Origin: Agathobaculum sp.
GTDB taxonomy: Bacteria > Bacillota > Clostridia > Oscillospirales > Butyricicoccaceae
Reading direction: 5' to 3'
NCBI RefSeq assembly: GCF_022775115.1
Contig: NZ_JALFLA010000082.1
Span: 1 to 35,399 of the forward strand
DNA length: 35,399 nt
Within the stretch, counting starts at the first letter, position 1, and every line of letters begins with the position of its first letter. The notes under the pieces were generated by a model that was given only the letters and a program-made list of their open reading frames with translations, did not search any database and was not told the origin of the DNA. The translations under genes were made by a program, and so were the position numbers. This document shows, in pieces, positions 4,319 through 31,713 of the stretch.

Positions 4319-4332
4319 CGAACACTTGTTCT
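4319..4332 (+). promoter_or_regulatory. LexA (SOS) box upstream of the phage-type cassette
   Basis: CGAACACTTGTTCT contains a perfect GAAC-N4-GTTC palindrome, the core of the Gram-positive LexA/DinR operator (consensus CGAACRNRYGTTYC). It overlaps the first base of the -35 hexamer at 4332, so bound LexA would block RNA polymerase. I infer that transcription of the downstream terminase-to-coat operon is DNA-damage inducible. LexA binding itself cannot be seen from sequence. Confidence 0.7.
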
Positions 4333-4360
4333 TGACTTTTTCCCCTTCTCCGCCTATTCT
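4332..4360 (+). promoter_or_regulatory. Sigma-A promoter of the phage-type cassette
   Basis: TTGACT at 4332-4337 and TATTCT at 4355-4360 are separated by exactly 17 bases. The expected start near 4367 gives a leader of about 55 bases before the GTG of the small terminase gene. No other good promoter is seen within the cassette, so this one likely drives all nine genes. Confidence 0.7.
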
Positions 4361-4420
4361 ATGCCATACGGGAGGTAAGCCAAGAGAAATGACCCATCTC
4401 GGAAAGGAGGCGAGGCCATT

Positions 4421-4633
4421 GTGCCAAACAAACGCGAGCCGGACGCGCTGATCCGGATGCTGTACGACATCGCCGGGGACGCCGAAGCGCCCGCGAACAG
4501 CCGCCTGTCGGCGATCAAGGAGATCCTCGACCGCACGGTGGGCAAGGGCACGATGCTGGACGGCACGGGAGAGGAGGCGCAGCCGGTCGAGATCGTGTTT
4601 CGCATCGTGGACGGACGATCGAATACGACATAA
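4421..4633 (+). CDS. Small terminase subunit-like protein
   Basis: This 70-residue protein sits immediately upstream of the large terminase, the normal place for the DNA-recognition subunit of a phage packaging motor. Its middle section (APANSRLSAIKEILDRTVGK) is the helical pattern common in short TerS-like proteins encoded next to terminases. It is much shorter than a classical TerS and may be only the DNA-binding part. The GTG start at 4421 is supported by a strong ribosome-binding site (GGAAAGGAGG, 4401-4410). The end of the gene overlaps the beginning of the large-terminase frame, one base out of phase. The assignment rests mainly on position and the helix pattern. Confidence 0.6.
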   Translation: MPNKREPDALIRMLYDIAGDAEAPANSRLSAIKEILDRTVGKGTMLDGTGEEAQPVEIVFRIVDGRSNTT

Positions 4634-5928
4634 CCCCAAGACAGGCGGATTTCATCCGCTCGACGGCGTTTGAAACGCTGTTCGGCGGCGCGGCGGGCGG
4701 CGGCAAAAGCCACGGGCAATTGCTCGATGCACTGCGGTTCGCTATCGTCTACCCCGGCTCGCGGCAGCTGCTGCTGCGGCGCACCATGCCCGAGCTTGCG
4801 CGCTCGCTCATCCCTGCGTCGCTGCGGCTGTTTCCGCAGTCGGTCGCTGCCTACAAGGCCAGCGAGCACCGCTGGGAATTCCACGGCGGTTCGGTGCTCG
4901 AGTTTGGCTACTGCGATGCCGAAAGCGACGTGACCCGGTATCAATCCGCCGAATACGACGTCCTCCGCTTTGACGAGCTGACCCACTTCACCGAAAGCCA
5001 GTTCACCTATCTGATCTCCCGCGTACGCGGCGCCAACGGCTTTCCCAAGCAGGTCAAAAGCACGACCAACCCGGGCGGCATCGGCCACCAGTGGGTCAAG
5101 CGGCGCTACATCGACCCGATGCCGCCTGACACCCTGACCGAATTTGACGGCACGACGCGGCTGTTCCTGCCCGCCCGGCTGGCGGACAACCCTTTTCTGC
5201 AAAGGGCCGATGTGGGCTACGCCAAGCGGCTGCGGCTGCTGTCCCCGCACGACCGGCGGGCGCTGCTTGACGGCGTGTGGGATCTGGACGAGGGACGGTA
5301 CTTCAGCGAATTCTCTGTGCCGTTGCACGTCACCCCACCCTATCCCCTGCCCCGCACATGGAAGCGGTATCTGACGATCGACTACGGGCTGGATATGCTG
5401 GCCGCGCTGTGGATCGCGCAGCGCCCGGATGGGCACAGCGTAGTATACAGAGAGTTATATCAACCGAATTTGATTATCTCTGAGGCAGCCGCCGCAATCC
5501 TTGCGCGGGAGGACGGCAACGAGCACATCTACTGCCGCCTTGCCCCGCCCGACCTGTGGAACCGCCGACAGGAAACGGGCAAAAGCGCGGCCGAACTGTT
5601 CTCAGCCTGCGGGCTGGACTTTGAAAAGAGCAGCAACGAGCGCGTCGCCGGTTGGCTGGCGCTGCACGAGCTGCTCGCCCCGCGCCGGGACGAAACCGGC
5701 GAAGCCCGACCCAAGCTGACCATCTTCGACACCTGCCGCAATCTGATCCGCACGCTGCCCGCGCTGCGGCACGATACGCGCAACCCATCCGACGTGGCGA
5801 ACACGCCGCACGAGCTGACCCATGCGCCCGACGCGCTGCGCGGCTATGCCGCGACCGTGTACGAGGCGCCGCCGCCCGTCCGGCCAACCGCGTATGACTG
5901 CGAGGTGGGCGCGTTTCTGTCCTACTGA
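4618..5928 (+). CDS. Phage terminase large subunit
   Basis: This is the packaging motor: an ATPase that pumps DNA into a procapsid plus a nuclease that cuts concatemers. Counting from 4618 (436 residues), the Walker A-type loop GGAAGGGKS is at 23-31, Walker B LRFDEL at 116-121, and the coupling motif STTNPGG at 148-154. The RNase H-like nuclease domain begins near TIDYG, with a likely metal-binding Asp at 255. The usual C-terminal HAPDALRGY segment is present. The start is unresolved. Between the upstream stop at 4390 and the Walker A loop, the frame has no ATG, GTG or TTG and only one CTG (4678). I placed the start at an ATC (4618) so as to include the family's TPRQADF lead-in. ATA at 4630 or a -1 frameshift from the preceding gene are alternatives. 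The TTG at 4720 lies after Walker A and would remove it. Confidence 0.85.
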   Translation: MEYDITPRQADFIRSTAFETLFGGAAGGGKSHGQLLDALRFAIVYPGSRQLLLRRTMPELARSLIPASLRLFPQSVAAYKASEHRWEFHGGSVLEFGYCDAESDVTRYQSAEYDVLRFDELTHFTESQFTYLISRVRGANGFPKQVKSTTNPGGIGHQWVKRRYIDPMPPDTLTEFDGTTRLFLPARLADNPFLQRADVGYAKRLRLLSPHDRRALLDGVWDLDEGRYFSEFSVPLHVTPPYPLPRTWKRYLTIDYGLDMLAALWIAQRPDGHSVVYRELYQPNLIISEAAAAILAREDGNEHIYCRLAPPDLWNRRQETGKSAAELFSACGLDFEKSSNERVAGWLALHELLAPRRDETGEARPKLTIFDTCRNLIRTLPALRHDTRNPSDVANTPHELTHAPDALRGYAATVYEAPPPVRPTAYDCEVGAFLSY

Positions 5929-6002
5929 GAGACAGCGCAGACCCTTGCGGGACGATTTACCACTCCTCGAATCTGTCACATTGCTATGTTAGGAGGAAAC
6001 CG

Positions 6003-6197
6003 ATGACTGTTTTACTGTACTGCCTTGGCGCGGCGCTGCTGGTGCTGACCGGCGCGATCGTATCGGGCGGCTTGCAGCTGCCCGTGCGCCCGGCGCGGCA
6101 GGATAGCGCGCCCGGTCCGGCGGCGGACGATGCGCTCAGCCGCGACCTTGCTGCGCTGATGGCCTACGGCCGGGAGGAGGGCGAGCATGAAATTTGA
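6003..6197 (+). CDS. Small single-pass membrane protein in the capsid cassette
   Basis: The 64-residue product has one N-terminal hydrophobic helix (about residues 3-25, LLYCLGAALLVLTGAIV) and a short hydrophilic tail ending in RDLAALMAYGREEGE. A good ribosome-binding site (AGGAGG) precedes the ATG. Its last codons overlap the portal start by 11 bases, so translation of the two is coupled. I do not recognise the family. A membrane protein between terminase and portal is unusual. Holin-like, spanin-like or membrane-docking roles are possible, but nothing here proves any of them. Confidence 0.65.
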   Translation: MTVLLYCLGAALLVLTGAIVSGGLQLPVRPARQDSAPGPAADDALSRDLAALMAYGREEGEHEI

Positions 6198-7740
6198 CCT
6201 CTCGCCCGCCGCTGTCTGGCGTAAATATGAGCGCGGGCAGGACTACAAGCGCTCGATCGGTCTGTATGACCGTGTACGGCGCAACGAGGCCTTCTACCTC
6301 GGCCGCCAGTGGGAGGGCTTGAAGGTGCAGTCGCTCGACCCGCTGATTTTTAACGTGCTGCGCCGCTGCGTCAACCTGTTCATATCCATGCTAGTCTCGG
6401 ACGATGTGGCCGTGCGCGCGCAGCCGTTCGATATGGATGACGAGGGGCGCAGAACCGCCCGCATCCTCGACCGCGCGTTTGCCTCGGCCATCGAGCGCTC
6501 GGGCATCAAGGCGATGGGGCGCAGCCTGCTGAAAAACACCTGCGTGGACGGCGACGGCTGCTTTTACATCCGCTTTGACCCCGATCTCGAGACCGGGCAG
6601 GCGGTCAAGGGCGATATCGCGGTCGAGCTGATCGACTCGACCAACATCTACTTCGGCAACCCGGCCTCCGACGAGGTGCAGCGTCAGCCCCACCTCATCA
6701 TCGCCATGCGGCGCGAGGTGGACGAGGTACGCGCCGAGGCCAAGGCCAACGGCATCAGCGCGGAGGAGCGCGCAGCCATCGTGCCGGATGATGACGGTGT
6801 ATACGGCAAGTACCGCGCGCCCGACGACAGCAGCCGCGTGACCGTGCTGCTGCATATGCGCAAGGTGGAGGGCGGCGTGGCCTTCTGCAAAACGACCCGC
6901 ACCGCGACTATCATGCGGGAAAAGGTGCTGCCCTACCGGCTCTATCCGGTGGCGTACATGAGCTGGAACCGTGTGCGCAACTGCTGCCACGGCGAAAGCC
7001 CGGTCACCGAGGCCATCCCCAACCAGATCGCCATCAACAAACTGTACTCGATGTATGTCCAGTGCGTCAAGCAGGTGGCCTTCCCCAAGATCATTTACGA
7101 TATGACCCGCTTTCCAAACGGCTGGTCGAGCGATGTGGGCAAGGCCATCGGTATGCGCGGCAACCCAAACGAGGCCATTGCGACCGCGTTCCGCGCACCC
7201 GATATCTCGGCGCAGGTGCTGCATCTGCTCAAGCAGATGATGAGCGACACGATGGAGCTGATGGGCGCATCCGAGGCCGCGCTCGGCACGGTGCGGCCGG
7301 ACAACACTTCGGCCATCGTGGCCGTGCAGAACGCGACCGCCGCCCCGCTTGAGCTGACCAAGATGGAGTTCTACCGCTTTACCGAGGACTGGGCACGCAT
7401 TTTCCTCGACCTGATGGGTGCGCACTATGGCGTGCGCACGCTCGTGGCCGCCGAGGAGCCGGGCGAGGAGCCAGTGCGGCAGCAGTTCGACTTTTCGACT
7501 CTCGCCGGGAAGGATATGCGGCTGCAGGTCGATGTGGGCGCGGCAAGCTACTGGTCTGAGGTCATGCAGACCGTGACCAACGACAATCTGCTCGAGCGCG
7601 GCATCATCTCCGACCCGATCACTTATTTGGAAAACGTGCCTGATTATCAGGTGCGCGGCAAAAGCGACCTGCTGCACGCGCTGCGGATGCAGAAGCAGCA
7701 AGCACAAAAGGAGGAAATGACAAATGAACCAGAGAATTGA
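6187..7740 (+). CDS. Phage portal protein
   Basis: At 517 residues, this is the likely dodecameric ring at the capsid vertex through which DNA enters and leaves. The opening region (YDRVRRNEAFYLGRQWEG, then LIFNVLRRCVNLFISML) is typical of portals in podovirus-type genomes. The mid-section has the stem-like MSWNRVRNCCHGESPVTEAIPNQ segment, and the later helix LLKQMMSDTMELMGASEAALG matches the portal region facing the DNA channel. The position between terminase and scaffold agrees. Translation is coupled to the small membrane gene upstream and the scaffold gene downstream (overlap of 17 bases). Confidence in the portal call is high; no experimental activity is implied. Confidence 0.85.
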   Translation: MKFDLSPAAVWRKYERGQDYKRSIGLYDRVRRNEAFYLGRQWEGLKVQSLDPLIFNVLRRCVNLFISMLVSDDVAVRAQPFDMDDEGRRTARILDRAFASAIERSGIKAMGRSLLKNTCVDGDGCFYIRFDPDLETGQAVKGDIAVELIDSTNIYFGNPASDEVQRQPHLIIAMRREVDEVRAEAKANGISAEERAAIVPDDDGVYGKYRAPDDSSRVTVLLHMRKVEGGVAFCKTTRTATIMREKVLPYRLYPVAYMSWNRVRNCCHGESPVTEAIPNQIAINKLYSMYVQCVKQVAFPKIIYDMTRFPNGWSSDVGKAIGMRGNPNEAIATAFRAPDISAQVLHLLKQMMSDTMELMGASEAALGTVRPDNTSAIVAVQNATAAPLELTKMEFYRFTEDWARIFLDLMGAHYGVRTLVAAEEPGEEPVRQQFDFSTLAGKDMRLQVDVGAASYWSEVMQTVTNDNLLERGIISDPITYLENVPDYQVRGKSDLLHALRMQKQQAQKEEMTNEPEN

Positions 7741-8215
7741 CCCCAGCCAGCTCGCCGCACAGCAGGCAGACCCCTTTTTGCAGGGCGCGCCTGCGCAGGC
7801 GGCAGGCGACCCGTCCGCTGCGCCGACCTACACGGTCACCGCGGATGGCCAAACGCACGAGTTGACGCTTGAGCAGCTGCTTGATGCGGCGGCGCGCGGC
7901 CTGTCCAAGCAGAACGCCTATATCCGCCGCAACCGCGCGGCCAACGGGATGCCGAACGGCCAGATCTACGCCGCGTTCGTCGAGGAGTACCCCGAGGTAC
8001 GCCCCGAGGACATCCCGCCGCAGGTGTGGGAATGGGCGCAGCAGGAAGGCTCGCTCGTCTCAGCCTACCGCAAGTGGGAGGTACTGACCCTGCGCGACGA
8101 GCTGGCCGCGCTTGAAATGAACCAGAAAAACCGGCAGGCAGCTGTCGGCACGGCCAAGGGCGACGGCGAGCCGGCAGGTCTTGACCCCGTGACGCTGGCG
8201 CTGCTGGGCCGGTAA
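7724..8215 (+). CDS. Probable capsid scaffolding protein
   Basis: This is a 163-residue hydrophilic protein encoded between portal and coat protein, the standard position for a scaffold in phages that assemble procapsids without a maturation protease. The N-terminal 30 residues are Gln/Ala/Pro-rich and probably disordered. A segment around residues 35-60 (YTVTADGQTHELTLEQLLDAAARG) is a pattern often seen in phage scaffold and minor head proteins. The C-terminal half is helical and charged (KWEVLTLRDELAALEMNQKNRQ), suitable for coat binding. No protease gene is present in the cassette, which fits a P22-like assembly route. The function is inferred from position and composition, not from a catalytic motif. 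Confidence 0.6.
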   Translation: MNQRIDPSQLAAQQADPFLQGAPAQAAGDPSAAPTYTVTADGQTHELTLEQLLDAAARGLSKQNAYIRRNRAANGMPNGQIYAAFVEEYPEVRPEDIPPQVWEWAQQEGSLVSAYRKWEVLTLRDELAALEMNQKNRQAAVGTAKGDGEPAGLDPVTLALLGR

Positions 8216-8270
8216 GCGGCTCCGTTTTGACCAATCCGCCATTTTGTAATATATAGGAGGAATTATACTT

Positions 8271-9302
8271 ATGGCTATCAATCTTGCTGCCCGCTATTCC
8301 GACCAGATCGCCGAGGTCTTTACCCGTGCATCGTTCATCAAGGGCAAAACCGCCGAAACCTTTGACCTGACGGGCGTCAAAACGCTTAAAGTATACACGC
8401 CGATCACGGTCGAGGAGGTCGACTACGACCGCGACGGCGGTCTCAAGCGCTACGGCGAGGTGACCGAGATGCAGGACGTTGTGCAGGAGCTGACCATGAC
8501 ACAGGACAAGGCGTTCACGCTGACCATCGACAAGGGCAACAACCTTGACCAGAATCTGGTCAAGAACGCCGCCGACATGCTGCGCCTGCAGCTGAACGAA
8601 AAATCCACCCCCGCGGCGGACAAATACGCCTTCCACCGCTTTGTCACCATGGCGGGCACGATCGCGGAGAGCGCAAAGCCGACCAAGTCGGACATCATCT
8701 CCAAAATCGCGGATGCGTCGCAGGCGCTTGACGATGCGCTTGTGCCGGATGACAACCGCTATCTTTACCTGACGAGCGAAATGTACAAGCTGGTGTGCAC
8801 CTCGGACGAGTTTGCGTCGGTCGACGTGCTCGCCCGCCAGAGCATCGCCAAGGGCGTGTGCGGCGAGGTGTTCGGTATGAACGTCGTGCGCGTACCCAAG
8901 AGCTATCTGCCCGAAAACGTCTGGTTCCTTGTCGCGCACAAGGACGCGGTGCTCATGCCCTATAAGATCGCAGACGCCAAGGTACACGAAGACCCGGTCG
9001 GCGTATCCGGCGCGCTGATCGAGGGACGGCACTACTACGACGCCTATGTGCTGGGTGCAAAGTGCGGCGGCGTGTACGCACTGGTCAAGACCGGGCTTGT
9101 CTCGGCTGCGCCGGTCATTGTGGGCGGCAAAATCACCGGCACGGGCACGATTCGCTACACGCTCGACGGCTCCGATCCCCGCTACTCGGATTCGGCCAAG
9201 GAATATGTCGCCGAGACCGTGCTGACGGCCGAGAGCGGCTGCAGGATCCGCGCTTTTGCAACCGACACCAGCAAATATCCCTCTCCCGTGGCCGAGGGAT
9301 AA
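8271..9302 (+). CDS. Major capsid (coat) protein with a C-terminal extra domain
   Basis: The 343-residue product follows the scaffold and resembles the HK97-fold coat proteins of podovirus-type phages. The N-terminal helix-rich part (LAARYSDQIAEVFTRASF), the central strand run GVKTLKVYTPITVEEVDY, and the ALDDALVPDDNRYLYLTSEMYKL / VPKSYLP region match that layout. The last 60 or so residues (about 280-343) form a distinct segment, GTIRYTLDGSDPRYSDSAKEY followed by CRIRAFAT. This is the pattern of the small Ig-like chitobiase/hexosaminidase C-terminal domain and could decorate the capsid surface. A strong ribosome-binding site (AGGAGG, 8255-8260) precedes the ATG. A hairpin follows the stop and could set a high coat-to-downstream ratio. 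Confidence 0.8.
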   Translation: MAINLAARYSDQIAEVFTRASFIKGKTAETFDLTGVKTLKVYTPITVEEVDYDRDGGLKRYGEVTEMQDVVQELTMTQDKAFTLTIDKGNNLDQNLVKNAADMLRLQLNEKSTPAADKYAFHRFVTMAGTIAESAKPTKSDIISKIADASQALDDALVPDDNRYLYLTSEMYKLVCTSDEFASVDVLARQSIAKGVCGEVFGMNVVRVPKSYLPENVWFLVAHKDAVLMPYKIADAKVHEDPVGVSGALIEGRHYYDAYVLGAKCGGVYALVKTGLVSAAPVIVGGKITGTGTIRYTLDGSDPRYSDSAKEYVAETVLTAESGCRIRAFATDTSKYPSPVAEG

Positions 9303-9318
9303 GCCGGTAAAGCGGACA

Positions 9319-9347
9319 CGCCCCTGCGCCGCCGCGGCGTAGGGGTG
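9319..9347 (+). terminator. Hairpin between coat and adaptor genes (possible attenuator)
   Basis: Arms 9321-9330 and 9336-9345 form a ten-base GC-rich stem with one G-T pair and a five-base loop. Extra closing pairs are possible on both sides. There is no T tract, so it is more likely an attenuator or RNA-stabilising hairpin than a full terminator. Its place right after the coat gene is where phages often step down expression. Confidence 0.45.
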
Positions 9348-9392
9348 GCTGCCCTGCATCCGTTTGACTCAGATGAGATAAGGAGGATACCC

Positions 9393-9761
9393 ATGACAGG
9401 AACCGAATGCTTCCGCGCGGCGCTGAACCTCTTGAGCGAAACGCCCGACAGCGGCGCGTATTATGAGCAGTTTGCGCTTGGTGCGCTCAACCAGCTCCTT
9501 GCCAACAGCCTGCGCGAGATCAACGCCGAGCGCGCGTTTGGCGGCGAACAGCCCTTTGCCGCGCCGCCCCGTGTGTCCGCGCTGACCGAGGAGCTGCCCG
9601 CCTGCGACTGGCTGGTGCGCGAGTGCTTTCCCTATGGATTGGCCGCGCTGCTCGTTGCCGACGATGACAAGGACAAATTTAACTGGGCGGCAAACGAATA
9701 CACCACCCGTCTGCTGCGGCATTGCCCCGCGCAGCTGACCGCCATACAGGAGATGCTCTGA
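9393..9761 (+). CDS. Probable head-completion / head-tail adaptor protein
   Basis: This short protein (122 residues, mostly helical) is encoded between coat and the large propeller-like protein, where P22-type phages carry the ring that extends the portal (gp4 position). It begins with TGTECFRAALNLLSE and contains YYEQFALGALNQLLANSLREIN and a later FNWAANEYTTRLL helix. The ATG at 9393 has a clear ribosome-binding site (AGGAGG, 9381-9386). An upstream in-frame start lacks one. The gene ends at 9761, where it touches the next ATG. The assignment is by position, size and helical content. Confidence 0.55.
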   Translation: MTGTECFRAALNLLSETPDSGAYYEQFALGALNQLLANSLREINAERAFGGEQPFAAPPRVSALTEELPACDWLVRECFPYGLAALLVADDDKDKFNWAANEYTTRLLRHCPAQLTAIQEML

Positions 9762-11578
9762 TGCGCGCCTATCAGTTCCCCCGGAGTGAAACCGTGCGGC
9801 AGACGGTCGTGCGGCGCTTCGGCGGGCTGGACTGCCGCACGCATGAAACCAAGGCCGCGCTCTCCCGCTCGCCCGATATGCAAAACCTGATCGCCGAGCA
9901 GAATGATTTTCTGGTCAAGCGCACAGGTTGGCGCACGCAGCACACCTACGGCGCGCCCATTTATGGCCTGTTCGCCCTGCCCGACGGCACGGGTGCGGTC
10001 GTACACGCGGGAACATGGCTGTTCTGCCGCTTGCACAGCGGCACGCAGACCGTGCTGTGCACCGATATGCACGCGGCTTTCTCCCAGTCGTTCACGGTTG
10101 GCGGCGTGCTGTACCTGCTGGATGGACACACCTACCGCGCGGTGCGCCGCAGCGCCGCCGGCGTATGGGAGGCCGTCAAGGTGCAGGACATCGCCTATGT
10201 GCCGACCACGACCATCTCGGCCGCGCCGACCGGCGGCGGCGCGAGCTTTGAAGCCGTCAATCTGCTCACGCCGCGGCGCATAAACACCTTTATCGGCAAC
10301 GGCTCGGCCACCCAGTTTCAGGTGGACGCACAGGGGCTGGACGCGGGCGCCGTCACCGCGTCGGTGAACGGCACACCAGTCGCTGTCGCTGCCGTCGACC
10401 GGGTGACCGGGCTGGTCACGCTGGCCGCCGCGCCCCCGAACGGCAACGGATTGGCCAACGTATCCATCGCGTTTTCCAAAACGGTGCCGGGTTACGCGGA
10501 TAAGATCAACAAATGCCGCTTTGCCGGGCTGTACGGCGGCAAGAACGACACGCGCGTCTTTGTCGCGGGCAATCCAGCCGAGCCTGCCTGCGACTGGCAG
10601 AGCGGCCTATACGATCCGAGCTACTTCCCCGACACAGGCTACACCCGCATGGGTACCGATTCGTCGGCCATCATGGGCTACCTCAAGCAGTACAGCAGTC
10701 AGTTGGTCGTCAAGGCAGGCGGCGCGCAGGAGTCGACCAGCTTTCTGCGCAGCTATCTGATGGCCGATGACGGCACGGCGCTGTATCCGCTCACCCAAGG
10801 CGCGCAGGGGGAGGGCGCGGTCTCGCCGCGCAGCTTTGCCGTGCTGCGCGACATGCCGGTGTTTCTGTCCGCGCGCGGCGTGCAGGGCGTATTCGGCACA
10901 GCTGTGGCCGAGCAGCGCACCATCCGCCCGGTCTCGGGCGCGATCCTGCCCAAGCTCGCGGCTGAGGGCGGACTGGAAAACGCCTGCGCCATTGTACACG
11001 AGGGCAGGTATTACCTTGCCGTAAACGGCCATATGTACATCGCTGACGGGCAGTTGGTCGAGGAGGACGGCGACCCGGCGTGGTTTTTCTGGTCGAACGT
11101 ACCCGCCCAGTGCCTGTGTGTGCTGGAAGGGCGCCTGTGGTTCGGCACGGCGGACGGCCGTCTCTGCCGCTTTTCCCTGCCCACCGAGGACGGCGCGTAT
11201 CGCGACGACGACGCGGCGATCAACGCCTACTGGCGCACGCCGACACTGCCGCTCTCCCAATGGGGGCGCGTCAAGACCATACGCGATGTCGTGCCGACGC
11301 TCATGCCCTACTCGCGCTCAGGCGCGACCGTACAATATGAAGACGAAAACGGCAAGCTGCTTGCGCTTTCGCGCAACATGGACCTGTTTTCCTTCAAAAC
11401 GCTGGATTTTTCCCGTTTTTCGTTCCGCTGTCTGCCGGGTGCGGTCAGCTACCGCACCCGCTGGCGGCAGCACCGCGTGCCGCTGTTCGCCGTGCGCATC
11501 GGCAACGACCAGCCGGACGAGCCGTTCGGCCTGCTCGCGCTGACCGTGCGCTGGACGCTCGGCCCATCCGTAATCTGA
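9761..11578 (+). CDS. Large beta-rich tail-hub (nozzle) candidate protein
   Basis: The 605-residue product has repeated beta-strand blocks of the kind found in propeller-like phage hub proteins, for example APIYGLFALPDGTGAVVHAG, FTVGGVLYLLDGHTYRAV, AIVHEGRYYLAVNGHMYIADG and CLCVLEGRLWFGTADGRLCRF. These recur at roughly blade-sized intervals. In podoviruses the protein after the adaptor is a nozzle or packaged-DNA stabilisation protein with this sort of fold (T7 gp12 / P22 gp10 type). I chose the ATG at 9761 (protein begins MRAYQFPRSETVRQ), which overlaps the adaptor stop by one base. An upstream in-frame start at 9722 would overlap the adaptor more. No enzymatic motif is seen. It is the largest gene of the cassette and has no frame disruption. 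The structural role is inferred. Confidence 0.55.
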   Translation: MRAYQFPRSETVRQTVVRRFGGLDCRTHETKAALSRSPDMQNLIAEQNDFLVKRTGWRTQHTYGAPIYGLFALPDGTGAVVHAGTWLFCRLHSGTQTVLCTDMHAAFSQSFTVGGVLYLLDGHTYRAVRRSAAGVWEAVKVQDIAYVPTTTISAAPTGGGASFEAVNLLTPRRINTFIGNGSATQFQVDAQGLDAGAVTASVNGTPVAVAAVDRVTGLVTLAAAPPNGNGLANVSIAFSKTVPGYADKINKCRFAGLYGGKNDTRVFVAGNPAEPACDWQSGLYDPSYFPDTGYTRMGTDSSAIMGYLKQYSSQLVVKAGGAQESTSFLRSYLMADDGTALYPLTQGAQGEGAVSPRSFAVLRDMPVFLSARGVQGVFGTAVAEQRTIRPVSGAILPKLAAEGGLENACAIVHEGRYYLAVNGHMYIADGQLVEEDGDPAWFFWSNVPAQCLCVLEGRLWFGTADGRLCRFSLPTEDGAYRDDDAAINAYWRTPTLPLSQWGRVKTIRDVVPTLMPYSRSGATVQYEDENGKLLALSRNMDLFSFKTLDFSRFSFRCLPGAVSYRTRWRQHRVPLFAVRIGNDQPDEPFGLLALTVRWTLGPSVI

Positions 11579-11596
11579 CACAAAGGAGGTAACCCA

Positions 11597-12547
11597 ATGG
11601 CAAGCTACAAGAAGGATTTCGACTACTCCGAAGCCATTGCGAATACGCAAAACGCCGGTGAGCGGCAGCAGCTGCTGGCCGAACGCCAGAACAAGATCGA
11701 TGCCGAGGGACTGGCGGGCAAGGTCGCGTCCAACGATGCGGTATCGACTTGGACGGGCAGCTACCGCCCGTATTCGGTATCAAACGGCGGGGGCAGCGGC
11801 GGAAGCGGAAGCAGATCGGCCATGCTCACGGTCAGCAAGCTGTACGAGGCCGCCGAGCAGGCGCGTCTGAAGCAGTTTGAGACCGCCCGCGCGCGCATCG
11901 GGCAAAGGCTGCAGAGCGATCTGTCCGCGATTGACAGCGACCACACTGCCGCAATGCGCCAGACCGAGATCAACGCGCACCGCTCGGTCGTCAGCAACGA
12001 GGAAAAGCTGGCCGCGCTCGGCCTGAACATGGGCGCGCGCACCGCCGCTGCCACCTCGGGCGCCGCCGAGACCAGCCGCATTGCGATCGACAACCAGTAC
12101 CGCGGTGACCTGAACGCGCTCGGTCAGGCGCGGCTGAGCGCCCGCGCGGCCGCCCAGAGCGCCGCCGCCGATCAGGAGGCTGCGCTTTCGAGCGCCCATT
12201 ATGCCGCCGAGGCAAGCGCCGCCATGCAGCAGGCGCAGGCCACGCTGACACAATTCAACGCCGACCGGGACTACGGCCTGTCTATCGCCGGTCTGACCGG
12301 CTTCCTAAACGGCACGCCAACGCTTGGCTACCGCAACTATGCCGCCAATGTCAGTGCAGCCGAGCACACGGCGGAAAGCGCCGCCCAGTCACAGTCCTAC
12401 GAGCAGGCGCTGGCGCGCTGGAAGGCGGCCGGCTATGTGCAGGCAGGGGACGCGGCCATCCTCGGCGTGCCCGCCGGTACACCGACAGCGGACACAAGCT
12501 ACAAAAACGCCTCGCTCGCACTGCAGCGGTGGAAGGCAGGATATTGA
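11597..12547 (+). CDS. Ala-rich coiled-coil protein, last gene of the capsid cassette
   Basis: This 316-residue protein has a Gly/Ser linker near residues 57-67, then a long Ala/Gln/Glu-rich helical stretch (about 75-230) that looks like coiled coil. A more globular end contains YGLSIAGLTGFLNGTPTLGY and a final LQRWKAGY. A ribosome-binding site (AAAGGAGG) lies just before the ATG. In short-tailed phages such helical proteins encoded after the hub are often internal or ejection proteins that line the DNA exit path. That is only an analogy here. A terminator-like hairpin follows within 15 bases, so this is the cassette's last gene. Confidence 0.6.
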   Translation: MASYKKDFDYSEAIANTQNAGERQQLLAERQNKIDAEGLAGKVASNDAVSTWTGSYRPYSVSNGGGSGGSGSRSAMLTVSKLYEAAEQARLKQFETARARIGQRLQSDLSAIDSDHTAAMRQTEINAHRSVVSNEEKLAALGLNMGARTAAATSGAAETSRIAIDNQYRGDLNALGQARLSARAAAQSAAADQEAALSSAHYAAEASAAMQQAQATLTQFNADRDYGLSIAGLTGFLNGTPTLGYRNYAANVSAAEHTAESAAQSQSYEQALARWKAAGYVQAGDAAILGVPAGTPTADTSYKNASLALQRWKAGY

Positions 12548-12558
12548 CTCTATTGAAA

Positions 12559-12592
12559 CAGGGGGTGCACTTCGTTCGGAGCGCACCCCCTG
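12559..12592 (+). terminator. Hairpin ending the capsid cassette
   Basis: Arms CAGGGGGTGC (12559-12568) and GCACCCCCTG (12583-12592) pair perfectly over ten bases. The T-tract is poor. Position directly after the last cassette gene and before the ccdA promoter supports a terminator role. Confidence 0.6.
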
Positions 12593-20140: not shown

Positions 20141-20683
20141 TCACATCGCCACGCGCTTGGACAAAAACTGCGCCGCAGTCTGGCACAGCTTGACGCCGAC
20201 CTCGTCGGCCGCTGCGTGGTCATCCTCGCTGACAAAGATGACGCAGCCCGTCACATCGCCGTCGGTGATGATCGGCACAGCGACCACCACATTATAGGAA
20301 TCGCTCGGCGACACGAGGATATCCGAGCCTTGCTCCGCGCCGCGCTCGTAAACCGCGCGCTGCTCCATCAGCGCCTCCAGCTCGGCCGAGATGCTCTTTT
20401 CCAGAATATCCTTTTTCGCGCCGCCCGCTGCGGCGATGACCGCGTCGCGGTCGCAGATCGCGCAGCTGACGCCCGCCGTGCGCGCAAGCGCCTCGGCCAG
20501 CTCGGCTGCGACTGCCCCCATCTCCCCCATCGGAGAGTATTTTTTGAAAATGACCTCGCCGTCGCGGTCGGTGAAAATCTCCAGCGGGTCGCCCTCCCGG
20601 ATACGCAGTGTGCGGCGGATCTCCTTCGGAATGACGACGCGGCCCAGATCATCTATACGGCGTACAATGCCGGTTGCCTTCAT
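20141..20683 (-). CDS. spoVT: Stage V sporulation regulator SpoVT (copy 1)
   Basis: This 180-residue transcription factor adjusts sigma-G-dependent genes in the developing spore. Residues 1-50 are the AbrB-type swapped-hairpin DNA-binding domain (TGIVRRIDDLGRVVIPKEIR). Residues about 56-180 are a GAF-like sensor domain (SCAICDRDAVIAAAGG, then PIITDGDVTGCVIF). The ATG at 20683 gives the usual start MKATGIVRR, with GGGAGGG in front. The first 56 residues are identical to those of the second copy at 34681-35223, and the GAF parts differ. A sigma-G-like promoter lies upstream. Confidence 0.95.
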   Translation of the reverse strand: MKATGIVRRIDDLGRVVIPKEIRRTLRIREGDPLEIFTDRDGEVIFKKYSPMGEMGAVAAELAEALARTAGVSCAICDRDAVIAAAGGAKKDILEKSISAELEALMEQRAVYERGAEQGSDILVSPSDSYNVVVAVPIITDGDVTGCVIFVSEDDHAAADEVGVKLCQTAAQFLSKRVAM

Positions 20684-20723
20684 TTGCGTGTTCCCTCCCA
20701 TACGGAATTTCTGGCTGTGGAGG

Positions 20724-20752
20724 TAGTATGACTTCGCAGCGGATAATTATGT
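20724..20752 (-). promoter_or_regulatory. Sigma-G-like promoter of spoVT copy 1
   Basis: On the minus strand, ACATA (20748-20752) and CATACTA (20724-20730) are 17 bases apart. CATACTA is the forespore sigma-G/F -10 motif, and Bacillus spoVT is sigma-G dependent. The second copy has the same elements at the same spacing. Confidence 0.6.
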
Positions 20753-20872
20753 AGCGCTACGTTGTGCAAATTTTGGCAGGCTGCTGCGCGGCAAGCGACA
20801 ATATGTTATTTTAATATAAATTATAACTTATTATATACCCTTTTGCCGACCATGCGCCGTCATGTGCGCGGC

Positions 20873-22141
20873 TCACGCCTCGGTCACGCGGCAGCCGGTG
20901 ACAATGGCGCGCGGTGCGCCGGTGAGCGCTGCGCCGGTAAACGGCGTATTGCTCGATTTGGAGCGGTAGCTTTGGTACACCTTGTTCGCGGTCCAGTCGA
21001 GCAGTACCAGCCGGGCATAGTTGCCCGCCCGCACCGCGCGGCCGGTCAGCCCGTACACCTTGGCCGGGTTCATGCTCATTTTTTCAATGAGCTGCATGGG
21101 CGTCATGCGGCCAGTCTGCACCAGATAGGTGCAGCAGACGGAAAACGCGGTCTCCAACCCGGTGATGCCCGAGGGCGCTTTGGCAAACTCCCGCGCCTTT
21201 TCCTCCGCCGTGTGCGGCGCGTGGTCGGTGACGATCATGTCGATCGTGCCATCGCACAGCCCCGCAATTAGCGCCTGCCGGTCAGTCTCCTGCCGCAGTG
21301 GCGGATTCATGCGCGCCAGCGTGCCGTGGTCAAGCACGTCCTCCTCGGTCAAGGCGAGGTGATGCGGCGTGACCTCAGCGTATATTTGTGCGCCCAGCGC
21401 CTTGCCCGCGCGGATGAGCGCGACCGACTGCGCCGAGGACACATGCTGGAACAGCACACGCGCGCCCGTATCGAGCGCCAGCGCAATATCCCGCGCGATC
21501 ATCGCGCTCTCGGCACAGGCACGCGCGCCGGGCACACCGAATTTTTCCGCCGCCGCCGAGCCGAAATTGACGCCCGGCGAGGGTACGAGCGACGGCTCCT
21601 CCTCATGGAAGGACAGCAGCGCGCCTAGCGCGGCCGCCCGCTCCATCGCCGCGCGGCACAGCCCGGCTGAGGTCAGGTTGATGCCGTCGTCGGTCAGGCA
21701 GGGCGCGCCAGCGTCCAGCAGCGCGCCGAAATCGGTCAGCTCCTGCCCTTTCAGTCCCCGGGTCACTGCGCCCGCCTGTAAAACCTGCACAGGACAATCC
21801 TTAGCCTTATCGGCCACATAGCGGATAATCTCGGGCGTATCGCAGGTCGGCAGCGTATTGGCCATGCAGATGACCGTCGCATATCCGCCCGCGGCGGCCG
21901 CCGCCGCACCTGTCAGCACATCCTCCTTGGCCGTCTGGCCGGGGTCGCGGAAGTGGACGTGCCCGTCGACAAAGCCCGGCGATACGGTCAGCCCGGCCGC
22001 GTCATACACCGCGCAGCCCGCGGGCGCGGCAAGGCGCGGCGCAAGCGCTTCGATCACGCCGTCCTCCCCGATGAGCACGTCGCCCGGTGCGTCCGTACCG
22101 GTGTACGGGTCGAGCACCCGTCCGTTTTGTATCAGCAGCAT
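20873..22141 (-). CDS. pyrC: Dihydroorotase (copy 1)
   Basis: At 422 residues this enzyme closes carbamoyl-aspartate to dihydroorotate in pyrimidine synthesis. The amidohydrolase metal motifs are visible: GHVHFRDPG near residue 60, LTDDGINLTS, FHEEEPSL, QHVSSAQSV, TPHHLAL and TDHAPHTAEEK in the second half. This is the longer, PyrC class I type. I chose the ATG at 22141, where GGGAGG precedes it and MLLIQNGRVLDPYTG follows, as in copy 2. It has its own promoter and is separated from the transporter upstream by a terminator, unlike copy 2. Confidence 0.93.
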   Translation of the reverse strand: MLLIQNGRVLDPYTGTDAPGDVLIGEDGVIEALAPRLAAPAGCAVYDAAGLTVSPGFVDGHVHFRDPGQTAKEDVLTGAAAAAAGGYATVICMANTLPTCDTPEIIRYVADKAKDCPVQVLQAGAVTRGLKGQELTDFGALLDAGAPCLTDDGINLTSAGLCRAAMERAAALGALLSFHEEEPSLVPSPGVNFGSAAAEKFGVPGARACAESAMIARDIALALDTGARVLFQHVSSAQSVALIRAGKALGAQIYAEVTPHHLALTEEDVLDHGTLARMNPPLRQETDRQALIAGLCDGTIDMIVTDHAPHTAEEKAREFAKAPSGITGLETAFSVCCTYLVQTGRMTPMQLIEKMSMNPAKVYGLTGRAVRAGNYARLVLLDWTANKVYQSYRSKSSNTPFTGAALTGAPRAIVTGCRVTEA

Positions 22142-22176
22142 ATGCAAACCTCCCTGCAAAGCGTGTTCTGCCTTCT

Positions 22177-22205
22177 ATTATAGCCGATGGCCGCGCACCT
22201 GTCCA
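22177..22205 (-). promoter_or_regulatory. Sigma-A promoter of pyrC copy 1
   Basis: On the minus strand, TGGACA (22200-22205) and TATAAT (22177-22182) are exactly 17 bases apart. Transcription would start about 30 bases before the ATG, leaving no room for a long pyrimidine-responsive leader. Confidence 0.75.
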
Positions 22206-22225
22206 TGTTCGCGCCGCGTTTTCAC

Positions 22226-22258
22226 AAAAAGCGCCCGCGGAAAACCTTCCACGGGCGC
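22226..22258 (-). terminator. Terminator after CDF transporter copy 1
   Basis: GCGCCCG at 22231-22237 and CGGGCGC at 22252-22258 pair, with further inner pairing of GGAA and TTCC. Five A on the plus strand (22226-22230) give a U tract for leftward transcription. It stops the DUF1294-CDF transcript before pyrC. Confidence 0.8.
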
Positions 22259-22266
22259 AGCGCTCA

Positions 22267-23433
22267 TTACATCTTGTGGTCAAAGGTCACCACAGGGTTA
22301 TACCGAACGTCAATTTCTTTTAATTGATTACGAATTGTCATCATCAAATTGCGCTTGGCGCTGACATCATATGTAAACGGTACGACCACATCGAAAATCA
22401 GGTTGATCTGCCGCTCACCGTCCACCACACGGAAATCGTGCATCGTCAGCGCTGGGTCGATCGCGCGCAGCGTGCTGTCCACATGCTCGCGCAGGGCGGC
22501 GATATGCGCGTTGTTGACGTCGATCGGATCCATATGGATGACCAGATACACACCGGTGCGCTGCCATACGTGCTTTTCCGCCTCGTCGATCGCCTCATGC
22601 ACGGCGACAAAGTCCGAATCCGCGGGCACCTCGGCATGAATTGAGGCCAGCGAGCGCCCCGCGCCGTAATTGTGCACGATCAGGTCGTGCACACCGACGA
22701 TGCAGTCCGACTCCATGACGATTTTGATGATGCTCTGCGCAACTTCGGGGTCGGCGGCCTCGCCCAGCAGGGGCGCGACCGTGTCCCGTGCGATGCCGAT
22801 GCCCGCCCAGATAATAAAGCCCGCCACCAGCACGCCCACATAACCGTCCACCGGCAGGGTGGTGAACCGCCCCGCGATCATGCCGAGGACGACCACGCCG
22901 GTCGTGATGACATCGTTGCGGCTGTCCTGTCCAGCGGCCATGAGCACGGGCGAGTCGATGCGCCGGCCAATGCTGACGTTAAACGCGCCCATCCAAAGCT
23001 TGACGAGCATGGATGCTGCGAGCACGCCGAGCAGCACGCCGGAAAACGCCACGGCGGTCGGGTGGAGGATACGGTCGACCGAGGTTTTGAAAAATTCCAC
23101 GCCCACCAAGATGATGAGAAAGGCCACGGCCAGCCCGGCGATGTATTCGGTGCGCCCATAGCCAAAGGGGTGCTTTTCGTCCGGCTCCTTGCCCGACACC
23201 TTGAAGCCAATGATCGAGATCAGGCAGGAAAGGCCGTCCGACAGGTTATTGAACGCATCTGCCGCGATCGAGATCGAGCCGGTCAGCAAGCCGATGGTCA
23301 GCTTGAGCGCAAACAGCAGCACATTGCAGGCAATGCCCACTGCGCCGGAAAGCACGCCGTAGGACTCGCGCACCCGCGCGTTGCGCGTATCGTCCGCGTT
23401 TTTGATGAACAGATGGATCAATGCATTGGTCAT
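22267..23433 (-). CDS. Cation diffusion facilitator transporter (copy 1)
   Basis: The 388-residue metal/proton antiporter of the CDF family has an N-terminal domain with about six membrane helices. Helix 2 carries AADAFNNLSD, with Asn62 and Asp66 in the site where relatives have D/HxxxD. Helix 5 carries QDSRNDV, a DxxxD site. The C-terminal cytoplasmic part (from about 225) is long and holds an unusual HDLIVHNYGAGRSLASIHAEVP segment and a final VVPFTYDVSAKRNLMM region typical of the ~390-residue clostridial CDF group. Substrate (Mn, Zn, Fe or Co) is not determined. Its ATG overlaps the DUF1294 stop. Copy 2 at 32065-33231 has identical length. Confidence 0.9.
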   Translation of the reverse strand: MTNALIHLFIKNADDTRNARVRESYGVLSGAVGIACNVLLFALKLTIGLLTGSISIAADAFNNLSDGLSCLISIIGFKVSGKEPDEKHPFGYGRTEYIAGLAVAFLIILVGVEFFKTSVDRILHPTAVAFSGVLLGVLAASMLVKLWMGAFNVSIGRRIDSPVLMAAGQDSRNDVITTGVVVLGMIAGRFTTLPVDGYVGVLVAGFIIWAGIGIARDTVAPLLGEAADPEVAQSIIKIVMESDCIVGVHDLIVHNYGAGRSLASIHAEVPADSDFVAVHEAIDEAEKHVWQRTGVYLVIHMDPIDVNNAHIAALREHVDSTLRAIDPALTMHDFRVVDGERQINLIFDVVVPFTYDVSAKRNLMMTIRNQLKEIDVRYNPVVTFDHKM

Positions 23434-23714
23434 AGCAATCCCCTTGAATACAATATGTTATATATGCCAACAATGATTGCAATTTGCAATATCATGATTG
23501 CCGGAATACCCAGCATAAAGCGACGGTGCAGCGTTTTGTGCCGAATGAGCAGCATGGTCAAATAAACGCCCGGCCCACCGCCCACCAGCGCCCAGAAAAA
23601 CAGCGTGCGCTCGGGCACCCGCGTCCAGCCGCGCGGCGCGGCCAGCTTATCATAAACGCAAACGGCCGCGCCGATGGCGCTGACCGCAAGAAAATACCAG
23701 ACCGCGTCACGCAC
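23430..23714 (-). CDS. DUF1294 family small membrane protein (copy 1)
   Basis: This 94-residue protein has three hydrophobic helices and the DUF1294 signature: VYDKLAAPRGWTRVPERTLFFWALVGGGPGV followed by RHKTLHRRFMLGIP. I chose the GTG at 23714 because AAGGGGG precedes it and the resulting protein aligns end to end with copy 2; an ATG further upstream would add residues lying in the promoter and terminator. The function of the family is unknown. It overlaps the CDF start by four bases, suggesting translational coupling. Confidence 0.8.
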   Translation of the reverse strand: MRDAVWYFLAVSAIGAAVCVYDKLAAPRGWTRVPERTLFFWALVGGGPGVYLTMLLIRHKTLHRRFMLGIPAIMILQIAIIVGIYNILYSRGLL

Positions 23715-23754
23715 GGCAGACCTGCCCCCTTGGAAGATGCTTTGTTGTTCCAGT

Positions 23755-23784
23755 ATTGTACCACATACCCGGCGCGGCTGCAAA
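23755..23784 (-). promoter_or_regulatory. Promoter of DUF1294-CDF copy 1
   Basis: On the minus strand, TTTGCA (23779-23784) and TACAAT (23755-23760) are 18 bases apart. Copy 2 has a matching promoter with the same spacing in the same place. Confidence 0.6.
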
Positions 23785-23814
23785 GGGCTGACGGCAAAAA
23801 TAGCCGCCGCTAAC

Positions 23815-23848
23815 AAAACCGGCATCCCGCATAGCTGCGGAACACCGG
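23815..23848 (-). terminator. Terminator after phospholipase-like copy 1
   Basis: CCGG at 23819-23822 pairs with CCGG at 23845-23848, with an inner stem CCGCA/TGCGG around a four-base loop. Four A (23815-23818) give a U tract leftward. The same slot in copy 2 also holds a terminator. Confidence 0.6.
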
Positions 23849-23856
23849 CTGTTTCT

Positions 23857-24792
23857 TCATCTTTTGGCGGCGGCACACTTTTTGGGGTTGCCGTTATCGA
23901 ACGGTTGGTCAAACCGTCCGTGCAGCGTTAGCCCCGCGTCGAACTGCGCGGTATACTGCCCTGCGAGCGCAGCCGCGCGGATGCGCGCCAGACCGAACAG
24001 GTCAATGACTGATTCGCTGCGCGGCTGGCCGGGTGACCAGAGGTTGTGCCATGGGGCGTGCGCATCGTTGAGCGCGTCCCACGCGGGGCGCTCGAGCTTC
24101 ATATGCCCGGTCAGCAGCGCGCCGCGCCCCAGCAGACGCTCAAGCCGCCGCGCCGCGCGGTATACTGTGCGGCTTTCGGAATACAGGAAGCTCTCCCACG
24201 AGAGCATCTCGTCAAACGCGCCGCGCAGTTCGCCGGTCGGCACGTCCGCGCCGTATACCCGGCGCAGCACGGTATGCAGCAGTACGGCCAGCACAGCCTT
24301 TTCCGTCGGTTCGAGTATGTAAAAGTCCTCCGGCTCAAACGAGGTCACCGGCAGGTGCCTGACGCGCTCATACAGCAGAAAGTCAATATCGCTCTCAATT
24401 TGGCAATGCACGGCCGAGGCGGACAGCTTGCCATCCGCTGCGCGTATCTGCTCCTGCCGGCAGTAGACATAGGGGTGCAGCTCGCTGTCGAGCGCATAAT
24501 GGCATACAAAGCCGAAAAAATACGCGGCGGCGATCTCATGTCCCTCCCCGCTGAGCGCCTGCACGGCGCGTGCCAGCGCGGCGAACAGCGCGCCGGTCTT
24601 TTCCCCGTGCATCCGGTTGCCCAGCTTATGCAGCGGACTGCCGCACAGCAGCTTGCGGTAAAACAGTGGATCGGGTCCCTGACACCCCCAGTGAAAACAG
24701 GCCGGGTGCGCGGCCGCGATCTGCTGCACCGCGGCTGGAAATACCCTGAGCGCTTGCTCCCCAAACAGGTGATGTGCTGCAAAATCTGCCAT
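23857..24792 (-). CDS. Zinc-dependent phospholipase C-like protein (copy 1)
   Basis: The 311-residue product belongs to the Zn-dependent phospholipase C-like family (PF00882 type). The His/Asp-rich metal pattern is spread along the chain: ADFAAHHLFGE at the start, CFHWGCQGPDPLFY near 32, NRMHGEK near 60, FVCHYALDSELHPYVYCR near 95-112, and SAVHCQIESDID near 128. There is no signal peptide, so it would act in the cytoplasm and may not be a secreted lipase. The ATG at 24792 has AAGGAAGG in front and gives the same start and the same length as copy 2. The yebC stop is 81 bases upstream, so cotranscription with yebC is possible. Confidence 0.85.
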   Translation of the reverse strand: MADFAAHHLFGEQALRVFPAAVQQIAAAHPACFHWGCQGPDPLFYRKLLCGSPLHKLGNRMHGEKTGALFAALARAVQALSGEGHEIAAAYFFGFVCHYALDSELHPYVYCRQEQIRAADGKLSASAVHCQIESDIDFLLYERVRHLPVTSFEPEDFYILEPTEKAVLAVLLHTVLRRVYGADVPTGELRGAFDEMLSWESFLYSESRTVYRAARRLERLLGRGALLTGHMKLERPAWDALNDAHAPWHNLWSPGQPRSESVIDLFGLARIRAAALAGQYTAQFDAGLTLHGRFDQPFDNGNPKKCAAAKR

Positions 24793-31670: not shown

Positions 31671-31673
31671 AGA

Positions 31674-31701: not shown

Positions 31702-31713
31702 GACGGTTTACCC

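Follow-up and report, generated by a model that had tools for sequence, protein, structure and literature searches.

The window analysed here, a stretch of 35,399 nt from an Agathobaculum-like species of the Butyricicoccaceae (NZ_JALFLA010000082.1), harbors between host genes a cassette of about 8 kb with nine intact genes, which encode TerS, TerL, a small membrane protein, portal, scaffold, coat, adaptor, a P22-gp10-like hub and a coiled coil (Table 1). Comparison of its sequences shows that the cassette is inherited within the genus and held by purifying selection. We regard it as fairly probable that a podovirus module of head and hub genes has been domesticated here, similar to a gene transfer agent (GTA) and under SOS control, which putatively packs host DNA. 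Among the options that the initial annotation had named, a GTA-like particle or domesticated capsid fits best, since TerS is short and has no helix-turn-helix (HTH) and since FpGTA provides a precedent (PMC12946183).

The presence of a nine-gene phage-head cassette with a LexA box between host genes, as proposed from the first inspection, was confirmed when open reading frames, families and promoter were checked. Upstream in the window lie ftsK and uppP (BacA), and downstream ccdA (DsbD_TM), a thioredoxin-like gene and rnf genes. With Pfam and PHROG no integration, replication, repressor, lysis or fibre genes were recognised inside the cassette, and none of the corresponding genes (integrase, repressor, replication, lysis, fibre) was found flanking it, as had been claimed; ten further ORFs of the window matched no PHROG of the integrase, lysis or structural kind. 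The coat has PDB profile matches to phage capsids, T7 10A among them. Family searches with the scaffold gave no match naming a scaffold, the adaptor has neither a family match nor a credible PDB match, the coil has no significant PHROG or PDB-sequence match, and the profiles of hub, adaptor and coil gave no credible PDB sequence match. The doubt raised before about the start of terL is justified, as no ATG, GTG or TTG precedes the Walker A motif in the window. The frame stays open upstream of 4606, the candidate start is an ATA overlapping the terS stop, and no slippery heptamer for a programmed frameshift was seen by eye. The Walker A/B and nuclease motifs of TerL are intact in all 16 cassette rows among 30 aligned, and also in L101. 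The hairpin thought to bound the cassette is indeed strong, but lacks a T-run, and the scan did not score it as terminator.

Table 1. Features of the cassette and its promoter region in the window.
Feature	Position	Strand	Basis
LexA (SOS) operator core GAACACTTGTTC (putative)	4320..4331	+	sequence
sigma-A/70 type promoter TTGACT-17-TATTCT (predicted)	4332..4360	+	promoter scan, 9/12 consensus letters
terS, 70 aa, short, without N-terminal HTH	4421..4633	+	weak phrog_10899 terminase small subunit match, E 0.0015; no Pfam HTH
terL, predicted ATPase-nuclease	4606..5928	+	Pfam Terminase_6N/Terminase_3, phrog_979; Walker A/B and nuclease motifs intact
tm, apparently membrane-anchored small protein, 64 aa	6003..6197	+	membrane segment by eye; complete in 20/20 loci
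portal	6187..7740	+	phrog_156, E 7.5e-25
scaffold-like protein	7724..8215	+	assigned by position (portal/coat interval); complete in 23/23
coat (major capsid), C-terminal Fn3_assoc/chitobiase-like domain	8271..9302	+	phrog_422, E 6e-37; Pfam Fn3_assoc; PDB profile matches
head-tail adaptor-like protein, 122 aa	9393..9761	+	assigned by position; 122 aa in 23/23 complete copies
tail hub/nozzle, P22 gp10-like	9761..11578	+	phrog_3287; AlphaFold2 model and fold matches
helical-hairpin protein (coil); candidate internal/ejection or needle protein	11597..12547	+	role inferred; predicted model
strong hairpin 3' of last gene, without T-run	12559..12592	+	RNA fold -30.2 kcal/mol, z -5.5

The LexA core GAACACTTGTTC was initially described as overlapping the -35 hexamer, but it directly abuts it (4332-4337). 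The motif GAAC-N4-GTTC occurs at nine places in the 2.19 Mb genome compared to 80 in the reversed control, and two of the nine are the lexA promoter and the cassette promoter. Therefore, the box of the cassette is not due to chance. Five of the nine sites have no evident SOS link. The promoter scan gave seven promoter-like sites in the region versus 1.9 expected. All 19 genus promoters checked contain a LexA box, 12 of them perfect and seven with one mismatch, and the hexamers in the relatives' promoters, read by eye, are similar to TTGACT/TATTCT. Furthermore, LexA boxes are present at the cassettes of G060 (genus g19), G066 (g20) and G065, with other letters and other promoter positions. In genus g18, no box, either perfect or with one mismatch, was found up to 700 bp from terL in six of the seven loci scanned, L101 being left out, and L098 has one weak match. 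The lexA gene itself carries a box in 3/3 Agathobaculum genomes, and no perfect box lies upstream of lexA in G060 and G066. In the window's genome and in relatives, the genes close to perfect sites are, as named by eye, lexA, an SLOG-like gene, a small pair resembling regulators and, in G013 and G019, a rarA-like gene; no lysis gene was seen near these sites.

An orthologous coat with 88-93% identity is present in 23 of the 25 genus genomes, including the window's own, and all nine genes are complete frames in the genus wherever the contigs reach. In all 19 loci extending past terS, ftsK lies upstream. Of the two neighbors named in the initial annotation, uppP was found upstream in 17 of these 19 loci, but of 24 loci scanned, some with contigs that end soon past the cassette, the window alone was found to have ccdA downstream; enolase takes this place in 11 of 15 relatives. 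In the 72 downstream proteins of 15 relatives, which are the downstream share of 131 listed flank proteins, PHROG recognised neither an integrase nor a holin, endolysin or tail protein and gave one weak RIIB-type match (E 5.6e-4); one downstream neighbor is DUF4914 (Pfam). In L057 a small Cro/C1-like ORF was noticed by eye about 2 kb downstream of the cassette. The cassette recurs elsewhere in the family, in the three genera g18 (8/8 loci fetched whole), g19 (G060) and g20 (G066), and 17 cassettes form one clade in a tree of 32 loci, in which some rows lack a gene. In the order sample a coat homolog (E <= 1e-20) is present in 43 of 297 genomes, 26 inside and 17 outside the family.

The median dN/dS, computed from complete ORFs only, is 0.094 for coat, 0.114 for portal, 0.124 for terL, 0.137 for hub, 0.157 for coil, 0.172 for scaffold and 0.173 for adaptor. 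Hence these seven larger genes resemble the neighboring ftsK (0.149) and uppP (0.158); the host gene flav has 0.096. With unsaturated pairs only, the values are 0.24 for coil and 0.20 each for scaffold and adaptor. The genes terS and tm evolve faster, with medians of 0.34 and 0.36 and maxima for single pairs of 0.89 and 0.94, respectively. Cassette and flank trees of 15 taxa have 10 of 12 splits in common, and two host splits (bootstrap 99 and 100) clash with two cassette splits (89 and 92). This comparison comprises the 15 loci complete for all taken flank and cassette genes, with L049, L055, L060 and cut contigs left out, and A1 is without L034. The earlier proposal that the cassette is maintained and SOS-regulated is thus supported by its genus-wide presence, intact frames, dN/dS well below 1, mostly congruent trees and conserved LexA boxes. 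An empty locus together with relaxed selection had been named as pointing to a prophage remnant; the homologous site is empty in the two of 25 genus genomes without the cassette (G011 and G024), but selection is not relaxed, and therefore this combination was not found.

A TerS without N-terminal HTH is described as a mark of GTAs in passages of PMC12946183 and PMC6854486. None of the five short TerS scanned contains an HTH (Pfam), whereas four of five long TerS of relatives have HTH families at E <= 0.001 (that of L112 under the Pfam cut-off), and the fifth gave a sub-cut-off GP3_package match. In seven related clusters or prophages TerS has a length of 120-196 aa. The hub, which had been called propeller-like, is podovirus-like according to its AlphaFold2 model (mean pLDDT 64), matching P22 gp10 and other short-tailed hubs. 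Its best Foldseek match is the P22 gp1:gp4:gp5:gp10:gp9 complex (E 1.2e-12), and VIA-align gave Z 21.4 to P22 gp10 and 22.0 to phage Pa223, compared to values up to 17.8 for unrelated propellers. The coil is predicted to form two long helices (pTM 0.41), and a viral fold search gave no match at E <= 0.001.

From these parts the following course can be assumed. DNA damage would lead via RecA to self-cleavage of LexA and thereby to derepression of the operon, and portal, scaffold and coat would then form a procapsid. TerS and TerL, acting without pac-site specificity, may fill the procapsid with fragments of the host chromosome, and adaptor, gp10-like hub and helical protein would close a short-tailed particle. 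Since there is no lysis or fibre gene in the cassette, lysis and adsorption must be external and could be supplied from elsewhere, e.g., by co-induced prophages.

Using a g19 endolysin, a g19 fibre and the holin family PF05105 as queries, no second "operon II" was found in Agathobaculum. The endolysin query detected a solo amidase that is not linked to the cassette, present as a full-length frame in 14 of 25 genomes (47-55% identity); in the nine loci examined, none had a LexA box at a distance of up to 250 bp from it. The fibre query matched in 18 of 25 genomes, best on a prophage-like contig and otherwise mostly in short stretches. ComEC is present in 19 of the 25 genus genomes. The holin PF05105 occurs in 11 of 25 genus genomes and is not conserved across the cassette-bearing ones. 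This would fit a helper-dependent unit, in which the cassette fills heads and prophages induced by the same SOS signal provide release and perhaps fibres, as would the lack of a lysis gene in the cassette, a LexA control that could synchronise cassette and prophages, and a related but divergent prophage-like locus on contig C36 of the window's genome. However, we consider such a dependence rather unlikely, as the cassette, in contrast to PICI-type satellites, lacks an integrase and mobility, and 14 of 23 cassette-bearing genomes, the window's own (G000) included, are without this holin, the only lysis family searched genome-wide.

It is also unlikely that the cassette encodes a PBSX-like or tailocin-like killer, i.e., SOS-induced short-tailed heads, empty or filled with host DNA, which kill competitors without gene delivery. 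SOS control and the absence of phage functions are in line with it, and a PBSX-like action of FpGTA is left open in passages of PMC12946183. However, genes for a fibre, spike or lysin or for immunity were not recognised in or beside the cassette, and as killing needs receptor binding, the missing fibre or spike counts against a killer; moreover, TerL is under strong purifying selection and is not obviously needed for killing alone.

A purely intracellular role, either interference with phages through parts of capsid, portal or terminase, or SOS-triggered altruistic packaging and death with no release, would explain why lysis and adsorption genes are absent, and the SOS response can also follow phage infection. 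Such a role seems quite improbable, however, because the whole set for head, hub and closure is kept, which is more than interference seems to need, and PADLOC gave one weak match for the portal (PDC-S01, E 0.0011) and none for the other eight proteins. The recently decayed prophage of the initial annotation fails as an explanation and is very improbable: the genes are phage-derived, most modules are missing, and single copies are damaged or interrupted (coat frame split and coil short in G065, an element inserted within the coat gene in L064, L068 and L069, coat split over two contigs in G052), but complete frames throughout the genus, dN/dS far below 1, mostly congruent trees and a conserved operator contradict it.

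Three further candidates were considered. A mobile satellite or capsid-forming PICI, also considered initially, was rejected, as it does not agree with the constant host neighbors, above all ftsK, and with the lack of an adjoining integrase or excision gene. An active temperate prophage should have an integrase, a repressor and modules for replication and lysis, none of which was found in the window or downstream in relatives. The retained TerL, portal and hub would argue against an encapsulin-like compartment.

Beyond the domesticated GTA-like module, we tentatively suggest a "half GTA" in the SOS regulon, whereby damaged cells would pack their own chromosome, with release and adsorption left to co-induced prophages or to enzymes encoded away from the cassette and with an operator position that differs between genera. 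If so, DNA damage would be tied directly to horizontal transfer in the gut, and the cassette would show how far reduction can go, to about 8 kb without lysis and fibre genes. As cultured strains exist (Agathobaculum desmolans ATCC 43058 and A. butyriciproducens DSM 100391), DNA-damage-driven packaging and transfer of host DNA in gut Clostridia would be directly testable. To our knowledge, few GTA-like elements are known outside the Alphaproteobacteria. In the PMC literature searched, nothing was found linking Agathobaculum to gene transfer agents, "Butyricicocc-" and gene transfer agent co-occur only in a probiotics review, and gene transfer agent, LexA box and terminase were not found together.

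Fuller clusters of the same family (L107 and L108 of g30, L112-L114 of g19) have homologous TerL, portal, coat and hub, but differ from the cassette by a longer TerS and a fibre-like gene; L112 has holin and endolysin by PHROG, and L113 and L114 likewise by eye. A homologous coat is also present in 19 phage records, e.g., Streptococcus phage Javan246 and Dulem virus 31, and the ten listed of these, with sizes of 34-38 kb, match solely residues 1-270 of the coat, at 35-39% identity. PBSX of Bacillus subtilis is an SOS-inducible defective phage that packs host DNA and has a long tail and lysis genes. The cassette resembles it as a putatively SOS-inducible phage derivative in a Gram-positive host but lacks such a tail and lysis genes, and its TerL reaches only 30.8 of 105 bits against the PBSX-family model TIGR01547, far under the cut-off. 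RcGTA is siphovirus-like in form, in contrast to the P22 gp10-like hub predicted here. What RcGTA and other alphaproteobacterial GTAs share with the cassette is a phage-derived cluster retained by the host (cf. PMC6854486, PMC11841831, PMC6473078 and PMC9632790). For R. capsulatus, a passage in PMC6473078 places a LexA site at the regulator gene cckA, whereas the box here lies on the head operon itself. The nearest described system appears to be FpGTA of Faecalibacterium. According to passages in PMC12946183 (Nat Commun 2026), FpGTA is the first such element of the human gut microbiome, the first podovirus-like one and the second in Gram-positives after PBSX; its operon I of about 10 kb encodes, besides podovirus-like parts, portal, scaffold, capsid, TerL and a TerS in which no DNA-binding domain is obvious, the genes for lysis and fibres lie outside it, lysis is reported in late stationary phase, and SOS is mentioned only for GTAs in general. 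Thus, both are operons of gut Clostridia with such a TerS, head genes and podovirus-like parts and no lysis or fibre genes inside, but the cassette belongs to another bacterial family, has no operon II equivalent among the matches obtained and carries a LexA operator in three genera. If our interpretation is true, it would add a further lineage of GTA-like elements, found in a different family and switched directly by LexA.

All nine open reading frames claimed by the initial annotation, terS, terL, tm (a small membrane-type protein), portal, scaffold, coat, adaptor, hub and coil, were found at their positions. TerL, portal and coat have clear phage-family matches in Pfam and PHROG, the hub falls into a virion structural family and TerS gives a weak family match, and scaffold, adaptor, tm and coil have no Pfam or PHROG match giving a name. 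Structure prediction, which had been proposed for the hub, yielded a model of modest confidence (pLDDT 64) that matches P22 gp10 (Z 21.4; other podovirus hubs up to 22.0), with unrelated propellers scoring below the podovirus hubs (Z up to 17.8). The coil protein was modeled as a long helical hairpin and has no significant match. The cassette is preceded by a flavin-reductase-like gene, ftsK and uppP and followed by ccdA, a thioredoxin-like gene and rnf genes. None of ten further ORFs in the window matched an integrase, lysis or structural PHROG, in agreement with the earlier statement that no integrase or lysis gene flanks the cassette. The LexA box at the promoter is present, but instead of overlapping the -35 element, as had been described, it ends directly before the promoter; the hairpin after the last gene is strong by RNA folding, but lacks a T-run. 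Besides, the coat carries a C-terminal domain outside the aligned part of the named-phage matches (among the matches listed), and a large inverted duplication includes AbrB/SpoVT-like, amidohydrolase and cation-efflux genes. A second, divergent podovirus-like locus on contig C36 of the same genome (TerL 56%, coat 34%) contains a resolvase-like gene and is probably a prophage.

Coordinates of features in the window and in loci of related genomes (L numbers)
Feature	Location	Remark
LexA box GAACACTTGTTC	window 4320-4331	immediately 5' of promoter
Promoter TTGACT-17-TATTCT	window 4332-4360	promoter scan
Nine-gene cassette	window 4421-12547 (+)	
Expected terL start	window 4606-4660	
Coat Fn3_assoc/chitobiase-like domain	window 9141-9299	Pfam
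Inverted duplication	window 20344-24792 vs 30735-35020	six pieces, 74-84% complementary
Element inside coat gene	L064 10001-11713; L068 3559-5273; L069 4537-6251	serine recombinase (own reading)
Extra ORF between hub and coil	L099 6752-6904	50 residues
Solo amidase	L173 10009-10728; L174 9873-10595; L177 9525-10238; others	adjoins cysK-like gene in these three

The coat was found in 22 loci of named records with 87-93% identity over at least 86% of its length (titled Agathobaculum in 19, Eubacteriales in two and Butyricicoccus sp. Marseille-Q5471 in one), and among whole genomes 23 of 25 of the genus, including our own, have an ortholog (88-93%). Of the other two, G011 has a relative at 51% only and G024 a weak match only; their homologous locus contains ftsK and uppP together with a DUF4914 gene and one of HAD type, but no cassette. 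An empty locus together with relaxed selection had been named as pointing to an ordinary prophage remnant. The empty locus does occur, but selection is not relaxed, with median dN/dS values (NG86, all pairs, synonymous sites partly saturated) of 0.094-0.362, and all ORFs counted as incomplete are located at contig ends.

Integrity and median dN/dS of cassette and flanking genes
Gene	Complete ORFs	All pairs	Less saturated pairs
terS	19/19	0.338	0.358
terL	19/20	0.124	0.135
tm	20/20	0.362	0.384
portal	20/23	0.114	0.117
scaffold	23/23	0.172	0.200
coat	22/24	0.094	0.098
adaptor	23/23	0.173	0.200
hub	22/23	0.137	0.165
coil	22/22	0.157	0.240
ftsK (flank)		0.149	0.149
uppP (flank)		0.158	0.166
flavin-reductase-like (flank)		0.096	0.141

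ftsK lies upstream in all 19 loci extending past terS and uppP in 17 of them (missing in L049 and L060), and a HAD-type gene (own reading) stands between uppP and terS in most of eleven loci listed, the window and L050 lacking it. Downstream (72 proteins of 15 loci, Pfam and PHROG), enolase follows in 11 of 15 relatives and iPGM, TIM and PGK in 9-10 of the 15 (Pfam, best 25 of 30 families); no integration, lysis or tail PHROG was found among these 72 proteins, one of which has a weak RIIB-type match. Where most relatives have enolase and its companions, ccdA and rnf genes are found in the window, which means that this side is rearranged. The concatenated cassette tree and the flank tree (15 taxa) share 10 of 12 splits; the conflicting ones have bootstraps of 99 and 100 (host) and 89 and 92 (cassette), and therefore some exchange, or model error, is possible. 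In three loci an element is inserted after about coat residue 85, and the coat of G052 is broken at the same place, its halves lying on contigs C5 and C30; the cassette looks like the attachment site of a serine-recombinase-bearing element. The coat-adaptor gap of L040, L049, L050 and L054 holds a small antisense ORF between short inverted repeats, with a membrane segment and an L7/L12-C-terminal-like stretch (own reading), which is eroded in L041, L047 and L051 and absent in the window.

As judged from sequence, the cassette is older than the genus. The coat profile matches 55 of 87 family genomes (E <= 0.001, prophages and short domain matches included). In genus g18 the nine-gene unit is present in all eight loci fetched whole; in the remaining four genomes, the unit runs into a contig end (G057), is seen as a fragment (G055) or has a coat split between two contigs (G052), and G047 gives no match. 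G060 (genus g19) and G066 (g20) also have the unit, terS of both and tm of G060 being assigned by position, and in the copy of G065 (g20) the coat frame is split and the coil short. Common ABC-transporter-type and antiporter-type neighbours (own reading) are found in L100, L101 and L102 of g18, among the loci listed. A DUF4914 protein follows the cassette in L052 (Pfam), G060 and G066 (both by visible similarity), and therefore the neighbourhood is partly common to three genera. In a FastTree of TerL, portal, coat and hub from 32 loci, the 17 cassettes make up a single clade (local support 1.0); the LexA-boxed genera group together (0.66). G066 (locus L099) has an extra, apparently membrane-spanning ORF, possibly a small holin.

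A LexA box lies beside all 19 genus promoters checked, 12 times as perfect GAAC-N4-GTTC and seven times with one mismatch. With promoter elements assigned by eye, the box of G060 (CGAACATTAGTTCG) lies downstream of the -10 and that of G066 (GAACGAATGTTC) inside the -35/-10 spacer; G065 has two boxes. These differing letters and positions of one and the same operator suggest that it has turned over while LexA control stayed under selection. Few places of the own genome carry the motif (9 vs 80 for the reversed control), one of them upstream of lexA, where a perfect box occurs in all three Agathobaculum genomes examined and in neither G060 nor G066. Within 700 bp of terL no box was found in seven loci of g18, three of g30, four others of g19 and seven that are prophage-like, except for one weak one-mismatch match in L098.

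TerS of the cassette lineage has about 50-85 aa, depending on the chosen start, and aligns with the long TerS of seven relatives (120-196 aa) downstream of their N-terminal domain; HTH families (Pfam, E <= 0.001) were found in four of five long and none of five short TerS. Loss of this domain is described as a feature of GTA TerS in the cited passages of PMC6854486 and PMC11841831. The Walker A, Walker B, coupling and nuclease motifs of TerL are kept in 16 of 16 cassettes. No ATG, GTG or TTG stands at the expected TerL start in most species (19 loci), the codon overlapping the terS stop being ATA (12), GTA (3), GTG (3) or CTG (1); either the start is non-standard via translational coupling, or there is a frameshift.

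Fuller clusters with a fibre, which may represent the ancestral state, are found at host loci of other family members, in L112-L114 also with holin and endolysin (L113 and L114 by own reading). Such head-fibre(-holin-endolysin) clusters among host-like genes (L107, L108, L112-L114, L199-L201) occur in other genera, and in other families, of the order and are candidates for further GTA-like elements. Of the 23 genomes with the cassette, 14, including our own, lack a PF05105 holin. Solo amidases with about 50% identity to the endolysin of L112 have an upstream GATTGAC...GTCAATC palindrome in seven of nine loci (among the matches listed); the copy in the window's genome is shorter (175 aa). According to the cited parts of PMC12946183, particles of Faecalibacterium prausnitzii ATCC 27766 are roughly 40 nm in size and contain about 9 kb of DNA; abundant in them are the products of a 10.5 kb operon, in which TerS is described as having no obvious DNA-binding domain. 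A second operon, which only some strains have, carries the genes for fibre, receptor binding and lysis. The Agathobaculum cassette follows the same logic as the Faecalibacterium GTA in that description and would work like a GTA.
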